This document shows, piece by piece, positions 181 through 64,000 of a stretch of 64,000 bases of DNA. Positions within the stretch are counted from its first letter, which is position 1. Each line of letters begins with the position of its first letter. The stretch comes from an uncultured Bacteroidales bacterium (GTDB lineage: Bacteria; Bacteroidota; Bacteroidia; Bacteroidales; P3). Location of the stretch: the NCBI GenBank assembly GCA_900318275.1, contig ONJY01000013.1, positions 1 through 64,000 on the forward strand, given 5' to 3'. The notes below the pieces were generated by a model that was given only the letters and a program-made list of their open reading frames with translations, ran no database searches and was not told where the DNA came from. The translations under genes and the position numbers were made by a program.

Positions 181-222
181 CTTAACGGCTACTAGACGGC
201 TAGTAAACGGCTAGTAGACCCT
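181..222 (+). repeat. Tandem 11-mer repeat (ACGGCTACTAA type)
   Basis: Three degenerate copies of the 11-mer ACGGCTACTAG/A follow CTTA and end in GTAGACCCTATGG. The same block, with the same AGACCC ending, recurs at 12427, 18690 and 18766 (reverse), 29786, 30018 and 51110. Here it lies just beyond the broken 3' end of the pseudogene at 221-529. Confidence 0.8.
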
Positions 223-529
223 ATGGAGAAGTCAATTCTATCGCGCGGAAGTCGCGACAGATGGCCTCTACGAGATTGGACAATTGGCCCTTGTTACCCC
301 CGGAATCGGCCACGAGGTTGGCCATTTAGCCGCAAGTTTCCTTCCAGGTGAGGTCAGGATACTGGAACTCTGCGCCACTCATATGTGCTCCAAGTACGGG
401 GAAGAACATGGGAACTAAGGCTTCGTGCATGTCTTTTGATGCCTGTGAGAGGAGAATTTTGATGCATTCTGTGCCGTTTCCGAGGCTCGGCATCTTGGGT
501 GCCTGGGGTTTGGTGATATCGTAATTCAT
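221..529 (-). pseudogene. Nonsense-broken, 3'-truncated remnant of a large Bacteroidales protein (VirE/DUF3987-like, tentative)
   Basis: From the ATG at 529 the frame encodes 67 residues (start MNYDITKPQAPKMPSLGNG) ending KETCG, then TAA at 328-326. Reading continues in the same frame without a shift as MANLVADSGGNKGQLSNLVE and on to a TAG at 223-221. The continuing sense after the stop shows a point nonsense mutation, and the 3' part of the gene is missing. Phrases such as MHEALVPMFFPVLGAHMSG and YPDLTWKE resemble, from memory, the N-terminus of large primase/helicase-like virulence-E or DUF3987-type proteins scattered in Bacteroidales genomes. That family assignment is tentative. The octamer repeat element lies immediately upstream (570-736). 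Confidence 0.6.
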
Positions 530-569: not shown

Positions 570-736
570 TATCAGTGTATCAGTGTATCAGTTGTTTTTT
601 GAGGGGTATCATTTTCTTGTTTCCACCCCTTTTATTATTTATATATATCTAATTATTAATTATTTATAAGAATTATAAAGAGGGGATTTTGAAATTAGGG
701 GTGCCATTTTTAAACTGATACACTGATACACTGATA
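570..736. repeat. Octamer-triplet inverted repeat element A with AT-rich core
   Basis: Left arm 570-593 is three octamers, TATCAGTG, TATCAGTG, TATCAGTT. Right arm 713-736 is their exact reverse complement, AACTGATA, CACTGATA, CACTGATA. Between them are 119 bases, very AT-rich (645-680) and bounded by CCCC and GGGG runs. It lies directly upstream of the start of the broken gene at 529. A second element with the same architecture but a different octamer is at 29531-29686. Iteron-like repeats beside an AT-rich stretch would suit a replication origin or a recombinase/regulator site; this is inference. Confidence 0.85.
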
Positions 737-749
737 CATTCGACCTTGG

Positions 750-926
750 TTACTTATTCTTTCTAGAGCCTTTCTTCCCTACGCGGCCAGCGATCATTTT
801 GTCCACTTTCTGGGCGATGGAGAGGGCTTGGTGGACGAGGGTGTCGGGGAGGCTGTCGGCCTGGGCTTCGGGCAGGATGAAGCAGAAGTAGTACTTGCCG
901 TCGCGACCGAGGGTGAAGGTGCTCAT
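750..926 (-). CDS. Small conserved-looking hypothetical protein (58 aa)
   Basis: The ATG at 926-924 opens a 58-residue frame, MSTFTLGRDGKYYFCFILPE at the start and VDKMIAGRVGKKGSRKNK at the end, stop TAA at 752-750. Codon use (GC-rich third positions) matches the neighbouring genes, and the frame reads as a soluble, slightly amphipathic protein with a basic tail. It lies just outside the right arm of the octamer element. That places it with the broken gene at 221-529 as cargo of the same element, but no family is recognised. Confidence 0.5.
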   Translation of the reverse strand: MSTFTLGRDGKYYFCFILPEAQADSLPDTLVHQALSIAQKVDKMIAGRVGKKGSRKNK

Positions 927-15763: not shown

Positions 15764-15866
15764 AAAAAAGGGCAAGCTGTTTATATCGCACCGCTACAAC
15801 CAAACACCCTTGCTGTATTCCTACCCTGGGGGATTCAATGGGAGCTGGTCGTATAAGACTTGCCCA
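15764..15866 (-). ncRNA. ffs: Signal recognition particle RNA (small bacterial type)
   Basis: Read on the minus strand, the segment begins GGGCAAGTC and ends CAGCTTGCCC followed by a run of six T, so the 5' and 3' ends pair. The apical part contains CCCCCAGGGTAGGAATACAG followed by CAAGGG, which matches the conserved SRP helix 8: CCAGG, then the G-GAA-type tetraloop, then AGCAAGG. A promoter with TTTG-N19-TATCTTTG lies 53-83 bases upstream. The RNA partners Ffh in membrane protein targeting. The exact 5' end is uncertain because the leader 15867-15910 could be processed. Confidence 0.85.
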
Positions 15867-15918
15867 ACCCTATGATATACAGGCGATAGCCTGCAACCGT
15901 TGTCTCTCTTTCGGAATG

Positions 15919-18446: not shown

Positions 18447-18562
18447 CGACTATTTTTCCATACGCCGAAGCATTTTTTATCCACCGTCGGCATTGGAAGG
18501 CAATCTTGCCGGCCGAGGGTTGCCGTCGGGTCATATTTGGGTTGCTGTCCCTACGGAGCCGG

Positions 18563-18803
18563 TACGGCAGTTCTTCAGTACTTCAACGATATTTCTTCAG
18601 TAGTTCTTCAGTTATATACTGAAATACTACTGAAGAAATGCCGTAGCGGGGCGTAGCTGGGAGTTTTGAATTAGGAGTTGTGGGGTGTTGTGGCCGTTTA
18701 GTAGCCGTTACGAAAATTGAGAATTGACAATTGAAAATTGAGAATTGAAAATTGGTGAGGGGGTCTTATGGCCGTCTTGTAGCCGTTTAGTAGCCGTTAA
18801 GGT
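18563..18803 (-). repeat. Composite repeat, copy 2 (reverse orientation), with GAATTGA heptamers
   Basis: The hairpin part is ACGGCA (18564) to TGCCGT (18644) with nested TTCTTCAGTA repeats. It is followed by a heptamer spacer (18656-18688), reverse 11-mers (18690-18708), six GAATTGA-type heptamers (18717-18757) and more 11-mers (18766-18803). In reverse complement, 18595-18710 aligns with copy 1 at 12427-12566. The gene-free stretch 18431-18986 contains this, plus an AT palindrome (ATAATATAATATATTAT, about 18849-18865) and the next promoter. Confidence 0.85.
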
Positions 18804-29007: not shown

Positions 29008-29530
29008 TGAAAAAAAAACAGAACATTTGCATTTTTTTATCAACCGGGTATTAATAAGTGTATAACAGATGCAGAAACAGGCTTTTGGGGTGAACGGCAA
29101 AAATGTTTTCCGAAGGGGTGAAAAAGAAGGCCTCACATAGGACTTTCTTTTCGGTTTCAGTTGTTGCTTTCAGTTTTCAGTTTTAGAGTTTTTGATTTGG
29201 AAGTGAAGGCCACTAGCCACTTACCACTATCTACTGACCACTAAATCTGGTGCAAAAGTACAACCTCCGCATTGCGGTCTACGAATACCGCCCCAAATAT
29301 TTTCCTGTCTGCTGTCATTCAGTTATTTCCCTGCTTCAAATACTCCTTTTTCTCCATTGTCGGCATCATGATATCCCTCACGTCTCGCCATTCTCGCCCC
29401 TCTCGTCATCCATCTTTTTCATAAACTCCCCACAAAAATCCATCACTCCCTTCCCCGACTTCGCCCGTCAGCTTTATATCATTGAATATCTATCACATCC
29501 AACGTTCAAAGCACCACTCATCCCCAGCCA

Positions 29531-29686
29531 GCGTAACAGCGTAACAGCGTAACAGTTTAATTTCTCCTCTTCCACCTACCCCAAATAAGGCCTTATATCT
29601 ATATATTTATATATATAGATATAAGAATTATTTTTTGACTTTTCAAATAGCATTTTTTGAACTGTTACGCTGTTACGCTGTTACGC
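29531..29686. repeat. Octamer-triplet inverted repeat element B with AT-rich core
   Basis: Left arm: GCGTAACA three times (29531-29554). Right arm: TGTTACGC three times (29663-29686), the exact reverse complement. The 108-base core includes a long AT palindrome (CTTATATCTATATAT / ATATATAGATATAAG). Arm length, copy number, spacing and AT core match element A at 570-736, but the octamer sequence differs completely, with both arms changed together. Confidence 0.85.
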
Positions 29687-29785
29687 CTCAACTACATATC
29701 ACAGCATCATTGTCCCGTAACTACCTGTCATACAGCTATTACCAAACACACCTGCCCATCTTTACTCCATTTCTACTGACTAAAC

Positions 29786-30076
29786 ACCCTCTTAACGGCT
29801 ACTTAACGGCCACTAGACGGCTACTAGACGGCTACTAGACGGCTACAAGACGGCTACAAGACCCCCATCAACCGCCCCCTATCCACTAGTCACTATCCAC
29901 TGACCACTATCTACTTTTCGAGTAATTCGCCATAAAATGACCAGCCCAATTCGTAAAATTCGCCCAATTCGCCGTTCTCTTCCACTTTTCAATTCTCAAT
30001 TCTCAATTCTCAATTTTCGTAACGGCTACAAGACGGCCACAAGACCCCCTCACCAATTTTCAATTCTCAATTTTCT
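29786..30076 (+). repeat. 11-mer and heptamer tandem block
   Basis: Seven ACGGCTACTAG/ACGGCTACAAG 11-mers (29791-29865) end in AGACCCCC. Further on come CCACT-type heptamers, AATTCG 9-mers, TCAATTC heptamers, two more 11-mers (30018-30048) ending AGACCCCC, and more heptamers. This is the longest 11-mer array in the window. Confidence 0.8.
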
Positions 30077-30127: not shown

Positions 30128-30442
30128 ATGACTGAGTTACATTGTAGGCATCTGCAAGCCGATATCGACCAATATGAACGGTCGACGGACGAGGAAGTGG
30201 TCGATAAATCGGTTTTGAAGCAGAAAATGGTCGATAAATGGTCGATAAAGCCCACTTTGGCCGAGAAACTGGCCGATATTTTAGTTTTTGTGGCCGATAA
30301 AGGTCACATCACGACGGAAGTTGTCGTCAATCATTTTGGTTTCACTCCCACTACCGCCAAACGCTACCTTCGCCAGCTTACCGAGTTTGGCTATCTGGAG
30401 GCACAAGGCGGCAACAGAAACCGGTCGTATCGGAAAAGATAG
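30128..30442 (+). CDS. Winged-helix protein, probably the C-terminal remnant of a larger gene
   Basis: The 104-residue frame (start MTELHCRHLQADIDQYERST) has repeated VDK phrases (VVDKSVLKQKMVDKWSIKP). A winged-helix region follows, ADKGHITTEVVVNHFGFTPT then TAKRYLRQLTEFGYLEAQGG. This matches the C-terminal DNA-binding tail seen on AlbA/RecG-like or Fic-family proteins in Bacteroidota, whose catalytic domain is absent here. It ends with TAG two bases from the stop of the converging integrase fragment. Whether it is expressed as a small regulator or is debris is unclear. Confidence 0.5.
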   Translation: MTELHCRHLQADIDQYERSTDEEVVDKSVLKQKMVDKWSIKPTLAEKLADILVFVADKGHITTEVVVNHFGFTPTTAKRYLRQLTEFGYLEAQGGNRNRSYRKR

Positions 30443-30444
30443 AG

Positions 30445-31137
30445 TCAAGCAAACGGCAATCTTTCATAGGTGTCGGTCTTCTGCTGGTGGAACTCCAGCT
30501 GAAGGTGCTTGCCGCTGCGCTTCACATCCTTCCACCGCAAACCTTGCACGTCACTGTAGCGCAAACCAGTCATGCAGGAAAAGAGGAACATCGACTGGAT
30601 GTTGTTGTATTCTTCGGACAGCCGGTGGTGGGCAAGTTTTTTCAGTTCTGTTTCCGACAGGAAACTTTTCTTCTCCTGTTCCCGTTTTGGGCGTTTCACC
30701 CGTTGCAGGATGCGGTCGTCGAAGAGTCCGTTCTTGTAGGCGTCGTGGAGAACGCAGGCCAGTTTCTGGAAGTATAGGCGCACGCTGCCGGGCTTCATCC
30801 CTTGAGACTGGAGGTATTTGATAAAGTCTTGGAGATAGGCTGTGGTAATTTTGTCGATAGTGATGTCTCCGTAGGCTTCGAGGTGGTTGCACATGAGACG
30901 GTAGGAGTCTTTGGTATTAGGTTTGATATTGGCGGACGCGGCATAAGATTTGGCATATTGCAGCAGGCTGACGGACGGTCTCTCCTCGGCCTGGCTGTTG
31001 CCGAGGCTGGCGGAGTATTGATAATGAATATCGGTAGGAAATTCGTCGGATGTCAGGCAAATGCTGAGTTCTCCTGAGGCTGTATATTGGATAGAAGCAA
31101 CAGAAAACTGAAAGTTGGAGTCAATCTTAATGTTCAT
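30445..31137 (-). pseudogene. Truncated tyrosine recombinase (phage/conjugative integrase)
   Basis: The 230-residue frame contains an N-terminal arm and the SAM-like core-binding domain (SLLQYAKSYAASANIKPNTK, FIKYLQSQGMKPGSVRLYFQ). The start of the catalytic domain carries the first active-site Arg in FLFSCMTGLRYSDVQGLRWK. It stops at TDTYERLPFA, so the HxxR box and the nucleophilic Tyr are missing, a loss of about 130 residues. It is thus inactive as a recombinase. The truncation point lies exactly at the junction with the winged-helix remnant, consistent with a deletion or rearrangement at the island edge. Confidence 0.8.
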
Positions 31138-51109: not shown

Positions 51110-51289
51110 CCTTAACGGCTACTAAACGGCTACTAAACGGCTACTAAACGGCTACAAGACCCTATGGCAACCTCTACGCTTCCCCTTCGGCTCCGGAACG
51201 GCAGTTCTTCAGTACTTCAACGATACTTCTTCAGTAGTTCTTCAGTCAAATACTGAAATACTACTGAAGAACTACTATGGAAATGCCGT
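51110..51289 (+). repeat. Composite repeat (11-mers then TTCTTCAGTA hairpin), copy 3
   Basis: Four ACGGCTACTAA 11-mers (51114-51157) end in AAGACCCTATGG. They are followed at 51198-51289 by the hairpin element ACGGCAGTTCTTCAGTACTT to TGCCGTAG, with nested TTCAGTA/TACTGAA arms. It is nearly identical over its left half to the copy at 18564-18644. 50933-51421 is otherwise gene-free and holds two promoters. Confidence 0.85.
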
Positions 51290-51409
51290 AGTGGCTCCAC
51301 AGGGACTCCTTGCCGGAACTGGGGCAAAACCGAAAGGAAAAAAAGTCGGAATCCGGAGTTGTGAACGGAGCTGTTTGAAACTTTTTTTTATTATATTGAA
51401 TTTTATTTG

Positions 51410-62725: not shown

Positions 62726-64000
62726 TGGAACAGCTCAAAGCTCTCTTCCATAAGTGGGCCGGCGAACCGTGCACCCAGTGTCTCGCACTCGGCGCCAACG
62801 GCTCCTCGCGGCGCTATTACCGCATCATTGGCGACACTCGCCGCTGCATCGGCGCCATAGCCTCCGACGTGCGCGAGAACGAGGCTTTCTTCGCCTATTC
62901 ACGCCACCTCCACGCTCGCGGCATCAACGTCCCCGAGCTCTACGCCGTCCACGACGACCGCCGCCGCTACCTCCAGCAGGACCTCGGCGACCTCTCGCTC
63001 TACGGACTCCTCTACGAGAAAAAGCAGAAGGGTGGGGGATTCGACGCAGAGATGCTGGCTCTCTACCGCCAGGCCCTCGCCGACCTGCACGACATTCAGG
63101 TGGCCGGACGCGACATGGACTTCAGCGTCGCCTATCCGCGGCCGGCGTTCGACTCCCGCAGCATCCTCTGGGACCTCAACTACTTCAAATACAACTACCT
63201 CAAACTGCAGCACATTCCCTTCGACGAAGACCGCCTCGAGGACGACTTCCAACGTCTCGCCGGCAGGCTCCTCTCCGCCGACACCAACTACTTCCTCTAC
63301 CGCGACTTCAACCCGCGCAACATCATGGTAGTTGAAAATTCAAAATTGAAAATTGAAAATTCGCTGACGCACAACAATAATTCTCAATTCTCAATTCTCC
63401 TACCTGCTTCGCAGGCCTTGAGCACCGCTGAAAAAAAATCAAATCCAGCGAAAAATTCTCAATTGTTCTACATCGACTACCAGGGCGGACGACGCGGCGC
63501 CGCACAGTACGATGTCGCCTCGCTCCTCTTCAGCGCCAAGAGCGACCTGCCCCAGGCCTTGCGCAACGAGCTGCTGCAGCACTATGTCTCGCTCCACGGC
63601 GACCCCCATTTCATGGACCATTTCTGGCACTATGTCCTCCTGCGCATCCTCCAGACCCTCGGCGCCTACGGCTATCGCGGCCTCTTCGAACGCAAGCCCT
63701 ACTTCATCGAGAGCATACCCCTCGCACACAACAACCTGCGACGCCTCGTCGAAGACCATCCCGACCTCCTCGCCGACCTCCCCGAGCTGCAATCCATCGT
63801 TCATAGGTTAGGTGCAATGACTCCAACCGCCAACCCCCAACCTCCAACTCCCAACCCCCAAACCGATGACTCTCAACTCACCGTCACGGTGATGAGCTTC
63901 TCCTTCAAGCAAGGGCTCCCCGACGACCCGTCGGGCAACGGCGGCGGACATATCTTCGACTGCCGCGCTCTCCCCAACCCGGGCCGCTACCCCGAATACA
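62725..64000 (+). CDS. Phosphotransferase-RapZ C-domain fusion (partial, runs off the window)
   Basis: The frame is open from ATG 62725 to the window end (425 codons seen). Residues 1-about 360 are an aminoglycoside-phosphotransferase/choline-kinase-like domain: GANGSSRRYYRIIGDTRRCI, then FLYRDFNPRNIMV (catalytic loop) and FYIDYQGGRRGAAQYDVAS (metal loop). Between these two motifs is a 45-residue insertion encoded by heptamer repeats (63330-63465). After a Pro/Asn-rich linker (63820-63880), a RapZ C-terminal-type domain begins (TVTVMSFSFKQGLPDDPSGN, FDCRALPNPGRYPEY). In Bacteroidota this fusion is known as a conserved protein; substrate unknown. Confidence 0.88.
   Translation, partial: MEQLKALFHKWAGEPCTQCLALGANGSSRRYYRIIGDTRRCIGAIASDVRENEAFFAYSRHLHARGINVPELYAVHDDRRRYLQQDLGDLSLYGLLYEKKQKGGGFDAEMLALYRQALADLHDIQVAGRDMDFSVAYPRPAFDSRSILWDLNYFKYNYLKLQHIPFDEDRLEDDFQRLAGRLLSADTNYFLYRDFNPRNIMVVENSKLKIENSLTHNNNSQFSILLPASQALSTAEKKSNPAKNSQLFYIDYQGGRRGAAQYDVASLLFSAKSDLPQALRNELLQHYVSLHGDPHFMDHFWHYVLLRILQTLGAYGYRGLFERKPYFIESIPLAHNNLRRLVEDHPDLLADLPELQSIVHRLGAMTPTANPQPPTPNPQTDDSQLTVTVMSFSFKQGLPDDPSGNGGGHIFDCRALPNPGRYPEY
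63330..63465 (+). repeat. In-frame inverted heptamers inside the phosphotransferase
   Basis: AAAATTC, AAAATTG, AAAATTG, AAAATTC (from 63334) face TCAATTC, TCAATTC (63382-63397), with a further TCAATTG at 63460. The block includes a TGCTTCGCAGGCC segment and adds about 45 residues (NSKLKIENSLTHNNNSQFSI at its start) without a stop. Confidence 0.8.
63820..63880 (+). repeat. In-frame heptamers forming the interdomain linker
   Basis: CTCCAAC, CGCCAAC, CCCCAAC, CTCCAAC, TCCCAAC, CCCCAAA: six heptamers in a row, encoding TPTANPQPPTPNPQT between kinase and RapZ domains. Confidence 0.8.

Follow-up and report, generated by a model that had tools for sequence, protein, structure and literature searches.

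Short DNA elements of Bacteroidales chromosomes, in which two inverted sets of repeated words flank an AT-rich core, are best explained by sequence comparison, and with moderate confidence, as iteron-type, origin-like sites that comprise a gene-linked type with matched initiators and a gene-less sister type. Element B, at positions 29531–29686 of the window (the whole 64,000-nucleotide stretch of DNA analyzed), belongs to the gene-less type. The computed results comprise the architecture, the family, the genomic position, the concordance of the arms, the covariation of word and helix and, in a few genomes, word matches within the same genome. The informative part of the repeat is a 5-bp word, NNNCA, spaced at 8 bp and, in the gene-linked type, also at 5 to 11 bp. 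The two inverted sets would each present three such words (TAACA inside GCGTAACA in element B) on either side of the core. In the gene-linked type, the C-terminal winged helix of the adjacent DUF3987-like protein would most likely bind the words, and the AT-rich core would be where the protein loads together with its primase, a mode of action proposed for SaPI Rep and SCC Cch2. Because word and recognition helix appear to coevolve, each copy would have a private address. We infer binding, origin function, and mobility of the gene-less copies from the sequence features described below.

Element B consists of a left array of three GCGTAACA copies (29531–29554, plus strand), an AT-rich core (29555–29662) with a palindrome at about 29592–29625, and a right array of three TGTTACGC copies, which carry TAACA on the other strand (29663–29686, minus strand). 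The arrays were established by direct reading, inverted-repeat search, and shuffles, and the core by direct reading and folding. The coordinates, the three-against-three copies, the 108-base gap, and the AT palindrome of the original prediction were confirmed on re-reading. Its description of the octamer as wholly different from that of element A (570–736), the sole other inverted-array pair of the window, has to be corrected, as the in-register units TGATACAC of A and TGTTACGC of B agree at six of eight bases. The inverted match of element B extends to 30 nt at 97%, and its two-unit word was observed four times, all within the element, versus 0.00 expected from 100 shuffles of the window. Folded as single-stranded DNA, the stretch reaches −45.8 kcal/mol (z −15.1), a value equaled by none of 200 shuffles. 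A tail of ∼145 bp (29687–29831), which ends in ACGGCTACTAG repeats, is common to the closer copies in pairwise comparison.

Element B is surrounded by an acetokinase-family gene, a winged-HTH ORF, and a recombinase fragment, with no initiator gene among them. The ORF of 104 residues and the fragment, a truncated tyrosine recombinase with a phage integrase SAM-like domain, lie at 30128–31137. A terminator or other RNA element was considered and rejected, as copies also lie between divergent genes and Rfam gives no match to them; in a search of the whole window, only a Bacteroidales small SRP RNA at 15766–15872 (minus strand) reaches the gathering score.

The window's own genome (G000; 56 contigs, 88.6% complete) harbors a family of such elements. 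A two-unit search gave 18 matches in six elements, including A and B, and further searches brought the number to about ten two-armed copies and some one-sided ones. The copies lodge between unrelated chromosomal genes in divergent, convergent, and tandem settings, and their neighbors include, by family, a divergent pair of DNA polymerase III alpha and amino acid kinase genes, a permease gene, a Rho gene (copy downstream), and a pheT-like gene (copy after its end); we take the named genes to be dnaE, pyrH, rho, and pheT. Across the genus, a search pattern built on 8-bp units with CAGTTC at their end has matches in 31 of 119 genomes, five of which (G017, G031, G074, G075, and G097) are without a repeated word and look like chance, versus 11 matches in total for the reversed pattern used as a control in the 119 genomes. 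The words of the gene-less type are TAACA, TTACA, CTACA, TTGCA, TGACA, TCACA, and GGACA, and G000 itself has TAACA, TTACA, CTACA, and GGACA elements. BLAST clustering places 26 elements from 12 genomes, with eight words, in one core family; the count is seven words without element A, which may have joined through its AT-rich core. That the window has just two such pairs could suggest that two unrelated palindromes happen to lie in AT-rich spacers. The shuffles, the copy number in G000, and the margin over the reversed control already refute this idea, the probability of which is negligible; the genome-wide pattern search that had been suggested as a check returned many further elements.

The gene-less elements are short, multi-copy, and intergenic, and they have terminal inverted repeats, and hence they could be MITEs, i.e. 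non-autonomous transposons of ∼165 bp with the arrays as terminal inverted repeats, moved by a transposase. Consistent with this, the homology of distant copies stops at, or a few bases from, the outer arm edges, while closer copies share the extra ∼145 bp on one side, with the ACGGCTACTAG repeats last, and some also more of the left flank. Three copies occur in the related genome G022 at the same place as in G000, with a word identical bar one unit. The copy between dnaE and pyrH is present in G000 and in G116, where it is split over two contigs, and is absent from G022. However, no target duplication is readable at this one absent site compared, the flanks being too diverged, and the same arrays adjoin a conserved gene pair; transposition as the whole explanation is distinctly unlikely. 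The two G116 contigs (L325 and L326) end near the center of the dnaE–pyrH element, as if the palindrome had broken the assembly. Among known elements, the BrickBuilt MITE of Porphyromonas gingivalis is likewise intergenic and multi-copy, with tandem repeats and inverted ends; it differs in its 23-nt minisatellite unit, and its abstract names neither element-specific words nor an initiator gene (PMC4596501).

The gene-linked type of the origin-like sites is represented in the window by element A, in which inverted-repeat search located a left array (570–593, plus strand) and a right array (713–736, minus strand), both with the word TATCA, around an AT-rich core (594–712). Directly downstream is the start of a broken gene for a 434-aa DUF3987-like protein, the same arrangement as in intact modules. 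This gene retains 67 codons from the start codon (326–529, minus strand; 25 aa at 76% to L103:5886–7130) and a further piece (221–325, minus strand; 27 aa at 92.6% to L103:5886–7130). Upstream of element A lies a small ORF (750–926, minus strand) with 61.5% over 39 aa to the G022 small ORF that precedes P0001, an AEP primase-helicase gene.

When element A with its flanks was used as a BLAST query, 31 of the 120 genomes of the genus gave relatives. Sixty stretches were taken from this search and, with four earlier loci, 68 places were read, most of which display, in this order, the end of an ORF, an AT core between arrays, and a gene start like MKYDITK. Most gene copies at these places are broken; nine of the ten intact proteins of ∼434 aa are 76–92% identical to the first. 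A scan of named genomes revealed 163 relatives of the 434-aa protein, the best 80 of which were kept and come from Prevotella and other Bacteroidales, mostly of the rumen, with one Segatella copri copy. Most of the genomes are MAGs, the two genome sets used overlap, and duplicates were dropped by identical protein stretches. For the 74 loci that have at least 200 bp of upstream sequence, the inverted match scores 18 of 22 or better in 59. The 434-aa gene is followed by a primase-like ORF of ∼310 aa at 71 of 78 loci; all seven of these ORFs that were tested have a CHC2 zinc finger, as in DnaG-type primases. An ORF further on is common to 25 loci (HU-like in four of four tested), and 48 loci have a small upstream ORF of ∼143 aa.

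A search of the order at E 1e-60 detected the 434-aa family in 3 of 393 genomes, one of which is the window's own, and the family is therefore confined to some lineages. The protein is without a match in phages and has a single one among viral contigs, and the pattern CAGYGTWACAGYGTWACAGTTC is in no viral contig searched. A tblastn search with the 434-aa and P0001 types gave no match among 72,556 plasmid records, so that the plasmid location of an iteron plasmid is not seen for them. DUF3987 proper (PF13148) was rejected as the partner of the elements; it is present in 16 of 119 genomes of the genus and absent from G000, and across 19 loci of PF13148 genes an octamer inverted repeat was found once, at L097, beside the broken start of a 434-aa-type gene.

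The position of the site relative to the gene bears on a further alternative. In 68 of 74 loci the best inverted match ends 30–52 bp before the start codon, as would suit an operator by which the adjacent protein controls its own gene through repression or timing, the gene-less copies being stray operators; the covariation of word and helix described below would look alike under this model. Two inverted sets separated by 100 bp, with an AT-rich palindrome between them, are more than an operator needs, however. The neighboring genes are primase-like and DUF3987-like, and the housekeeping genes on either side of the gene-less copies can be divergent, convergent, or tandem, all of which argues against an operator and makes it fairly unlikely, though these data are compatible with either role.

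The protein that would serve the origin-like sites of the gene-linked type is, by sequence comparison, a remote relative of the DUF3987 proteins, and helicase-like activity is a plausible property of it. A helicase role in mobile elements has been predicted for DUF3987 (PMC5862659). Searches of Pfam, NCBIfam, PHROGs, and PDB sequences returned no match that names the 434-aa protein, and its P-loop-like stretch, GGNKGQ, is non-canonical. The whole-protein model is poor (mean pLDDT 47.7) with a good C-terminal part, which when modeled alone from 22 sequences reaches a mean pLDDT of 87.4 and consists of three helices followed by two strands. The helix at residues 399–411 is the predicted third, recognition helix of this confidently predicted winged helix. 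Foldseek placed MarR-type winged-helix regulators and Z-DNA-binding domains at the top of its matches to the C-terminal part, none of them at E ≤ 0.001.

Identification of the word reader relies on the 71 proteins labeled with a word. The words are TTCCA (34), TTACA (11), TTTCA (9), TGACA (6), and TATCA (4), with TTCCG and TAACA twice each and CGACA, AGACA, and TCTCA once each. On the best tree of the 434-aa protein, parsimony requires 25 word changes versus a shuffled mean of 34.9. When trees were compared on the same rows, the words clustered on the 434-aa protein (14 changes versus 20 shuffled) and not on the small ORF (18 versus 20), and in a second set of shared rows on the 434-aa protein (22 versus 30.3) and not on the primase (30 versus 30.3). 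The small ORF and the primase were rejected as word readers since their trees display no word clustering. Words can differ between close relatives: L212 and L213, of the same genome and with proteins 92% identical, have TTCCA and TGACA, respectively.

Every protein column was scored in 30 close pairs with different words versus 32 pairs with the same word. The highest scores are those of columns 408 (0.77 versus 0.25) and 411 (0.77 versus 0.34), and the top dozen also includes 395, 398, 404, 410, and 403 as well as 96, 361, 276, 148, and 93 outside the helix. In 35 disjoint closest pairs, 17 of which differ in word, the best columns are 398, 408, 411, and 404, with family-wise p values of 0.013, 0.062, 0.14, and 0.22, respectively; all four sit on or beside the helix at 399–411. 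The pairings of base and residue are specific in part. A C at word position 3 is accompanied by Lys408 in 36 of 36 proteins, and Lys408 occurs, as an exception, in 4 of the 35 proteins with non-C words. The trio Arg404-Val408-Ser411 accompanies TTTCA in eight of nine rows, which lie in several parts of the tree, and no other word. For TTACA the partner is Gln408 plus an aromatic 411 in 7 of 11 rows, and for TATCA it is Asn408 in three of four, the three forming one clade; TTACA and TGACA each pair with several residues.

Independent contrasts were counted on a tree built without the winged helix and on supported branches only. For C and Lys there are six, in which Lys follows C in 5.4 on average and the opposite is seen in none (median sign test 0.06). 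Same-direction changes were found in 4.0 of 7 contrasts for A and Gln, in 3.0 of 5 for T and Val, Leu, Ile, or Asn, in 2.8 of 4 for T at position 2 and an aromatic residue at 411, and in 3.5 of 4 for TTTCA and Arg-Val-Ser, none of these being significant alone.

Eleven readable loci, unused for the rule and without duplicates of the 71, form a left-out set, to which L375 (no readable word), L444 (44% identity, irregular arms), and L442 (the same place as L153) do not belong. Words were assigned by script, except that those of L359 and L374 were read from the sequence, the script labels being out of register. The one locus with a C word (L370, a viral contig with TTCCA) is also the only one of the eleven with Lys408, which the other ten lack, and Arg-Val-Ser is confined to the three TTTCA loci (L360, L364, and L443, the last from another family), all of which have it, and is missing from the remaining eight. 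L153, the intact copy of the window's own genome, combines TATCA with Asn408, and L374 combines TTACA with Ile408-Phe411. His404 accompanies TCACA (L162, L358, L359, and L371) or TCTCA (L372) in five of five left-out loci and also in L261, but L214, a TTACA locus, has His404 as well. The weight of the covariation lies in the agreement between position in the helix, the repeated switches, and the left-out loci, with moderate family-wise significance of single columns. Word and recognition helix most likely coevolve in the gene-linked type, and the element-specific octamers in the manner of iterons with matched initiators, which the original prediction had suggested with a search for covariation of a nearby gene as a check, are supported by the family found here, by its element-specific words, and by the covarying recognition helix of the adjacent protein in the gene-linked type.

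A broader and more tentative proposal is that the elements are dispersed chromosomal mini-origins, with private 5-bp words that would be read by resident primase-helicases through a near one-residue-per-base code (at position 3, Lys for C, Gln for A, and Val, Asn, or Leu for T). A change of reader would be followed by a rewriting of words to match it, even on unrelated cores, through slippage and conversion, and the addresses would turn over like an incompatibility code; this is possible, although we would not presume it.

How words change is informed by the agreement of the two arms. The same word is found in both arms in 67 of the 73 gene-linked loci with at least 330 bp, versus a mean of 18.5 and a maximum of 29 in 2000 shuffles of the right arms. 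The six non-agreeing loci consist of four detector misses with visible arms (L222, L237, L248, and L254), one mixed locus (L255), and one with no element (L287). Among script-picked two-armed elements, A and B included, 33 of 37 have the same innermost word in both arms. The earlier statement that both arms had changed together therefore describes the usual state and not a strict rule, as the dnaE–pyrH copy of G000 (L019) carries TAACA three times on the left and TTACA three times on the right. One-sided and mismatched copies, which in large numbers would have spoken against coordinated arms, do exist, while most elements have matched arms.

Arm slippage and hairpin template switching between arms could in principle keep all six copies alike as a mutational drive without any protein reader. 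Two comparisons are in favor of such a process. In G116, the element on contig C24 (L176) has TCACA in all six units where the copy on contig C35 of G000 has TAACA, with 2 mismatches and 2 gap columns in a core of 116–118 bp, 39 of 40 identical bases in the left flank, and a different right flank; GTCACAGNGTCACAG is found at that element alone in G116 (92% complete). In the right arm of the dnaE–pyrH copy, three units differ together between G000, with TGTAACGC three times, and G116, with TGTTACGC, TGTTACGG, and TGTTACGC. These two cases indicate that a changed word comes to fill one whole arm, often the other as well, on a core that stays as it was. In contrast, the spacing of the words is mirrored in 31 and unmirrored in 26 of the 57 gene-linked loci with three words per arm (in 11 of the 26, the left arm has 9,6 and the right arm 6,9), and the 26 unmirrored loci have six identical words, from which it seems that words are kept as single sites and not only as hairpin halves. 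The templating mechanism raised at the outset is partly supported: it is in line with the six units changed on a nearly identical core, whereas the unmirrored loci are unlike simple hairpin copying. Covariation with the residues of one helix is also unexpected from drive alone, which is quite improbable as a full account; drive may be the way in which changes spread. Under the origin-like reading, slippage with template switching, or conversion from another copy, would spread words, and selection by the reader would fix them.

The gene-less type would have a different reader, the P0001-type AEP primase-helicase. P0001 has an N-terminal domain that resembles BT4734 but falls slightly short of the cut-off (E 6.6e-4) and a C-terminal half related to the 434-aa protein (29–34% identity). 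A clear word array lies in the linker between primase and helicase in 8 of 20 readable P0001-type genes: six have three identical words, one (P0001) has two and a variant, and one has two. The array at L102:6836–6860, in the linker of the intact gene of G022, is half a B-type array and in frame. The iterons of phage lambda likewise lie inside the linker of the O gene; the arrays here are one-sided, in another protein, and not in all members. Thr408 is present in three of three genes with a CTACA linker and in none of the other five array genes.

Agreement between gene and elements was found within a few genomes. G132 has a gene with a CTACA linker array and ten two-armed CTACA elements in four core groups, three of them single-element; three of the ten elements have one TTACA unit, and 18 of 20 further matches in the genome are CTACA in both printed units. 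The G067 gene carries CTACA, as do two of three further matches, the third being mixed. The gene and both arms of one element in G099 have CTTGCA, with a further match of GTTGCA. The gene of G022 has TTACA and TAACA, likewise most of its elements, the others having GGACA, and agreement in G026 is partial. A TGACA element is on the contig of a gene with Lys408-Ser411 and no linker array in both G069 and G079; this pairing, which recurs at two of six TGACA words of the 434-aa type, is a weak hint. G079 has no TTGCA element for its TTGCA gene. Eight gene-bearing genomes have no gene-less match (G078, G080, G084, G100, G105, G111, and G138, and G073, in which only its own gene matches), while G000, G103, G116, and G117 have gene-less elements and no P0001-type gene was found in them, the window's genome being 88.6% complete. 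P0001 has no match in viral contigs. The sole match in the phage collection is a 33% P0001-type match in L441 (MT839699.1), an unannotated 4,086-base 'Bacteriophage sp.' record from human feces. Because its words belong to the linker-word set of the BT4734-type genes of relatives, element B is probably a mini-origin of the gene-less sister type or a remnant of one, served by a P0001-type protein; we infer this reader from the relatives.

The closest known parallel is the SaPI replication module, in which Rep and origin pair in an element-specific manner and iterons flank an AT-rich region. The likeness consists of a helicase-like initiator with a primase and a multi-repeat origin; in the gene-linked type, helicase-like and primase genes occur together, with repeats beside the gene around an AT-rich stretch, and it would work like SaPI Rep or SCC Cch2. 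The differences are that the site is upstream and not downstream of the gene, that the primase is of the DnaG type or a BT4734-type AEP, that gene-less copies exist, and that the hosts are Bacteroidales chromosomes. Homology of the initiator to SaPI Rep or to Cch and Cch2 (DUF927, D5) is absent by Pfam and PDB searches, with no DUF927 or D5 Pfam match at E up to 1 in three proteins and no relevant PDB sequence match. PMC7581432 describes a SaPI helicase C-terminal domain that recognizes an origin of multiple short repeats, and an SCCmec Cch2 whose isolated C-terminal helicase domain binds a putative origin with three 5-nt iterons (AAGTG). Cch2, as presented there, has one direct set of iterons, whereas the elements here have two inverted sets and many words. 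The excerpted account of BT4734-type AEP and DUF3987 proteins in PMC5862659 is without repeats or an origin, in contrast with the word arrays here. Among the open-literature matches listed, the excerpts contain no account of such elements.

The joint change of specificity in initiators and origins has long been a question, and natural series that bear on it are few; the elements described here add dozens of natural word–helix pairs with repeated independent switches and half-changed elements. With so many pairs on hand, the putative code can be tested by simple binding assays. If the origin reading holds, it provides a role for a gut Bacteroidales gene set and for octamer repeats in spacers.

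Other repeats are present in spacers of the window and in other genomes. Intergenic 11-mer tandem arrays of ACGGCTACTAG and its variants, which also end the B-type tails, lie at 185–219, 29795–29862, and 51114–51155 of the window, and arrays of heptamers such as GAAAATT, TCAATTC, and AATTCTC at 18712–18754, 29989–30015, and 63332–63399. Units like CCACTAGCCACTGA occupy a spacer at 29210–29243, and two mutually alike, imperfect inverted repeats of TTCTTCAGTA-like units are found at 51207–51291 and 18559–18649. A one-sided TTACA array (L106:3861–4009) lies shortly 5' of a Type ISP restriction-modification gene, and G058, from another family of the order, has long one-sided TGAAACYC octamer arrays on contigs C44, C51, and C122.
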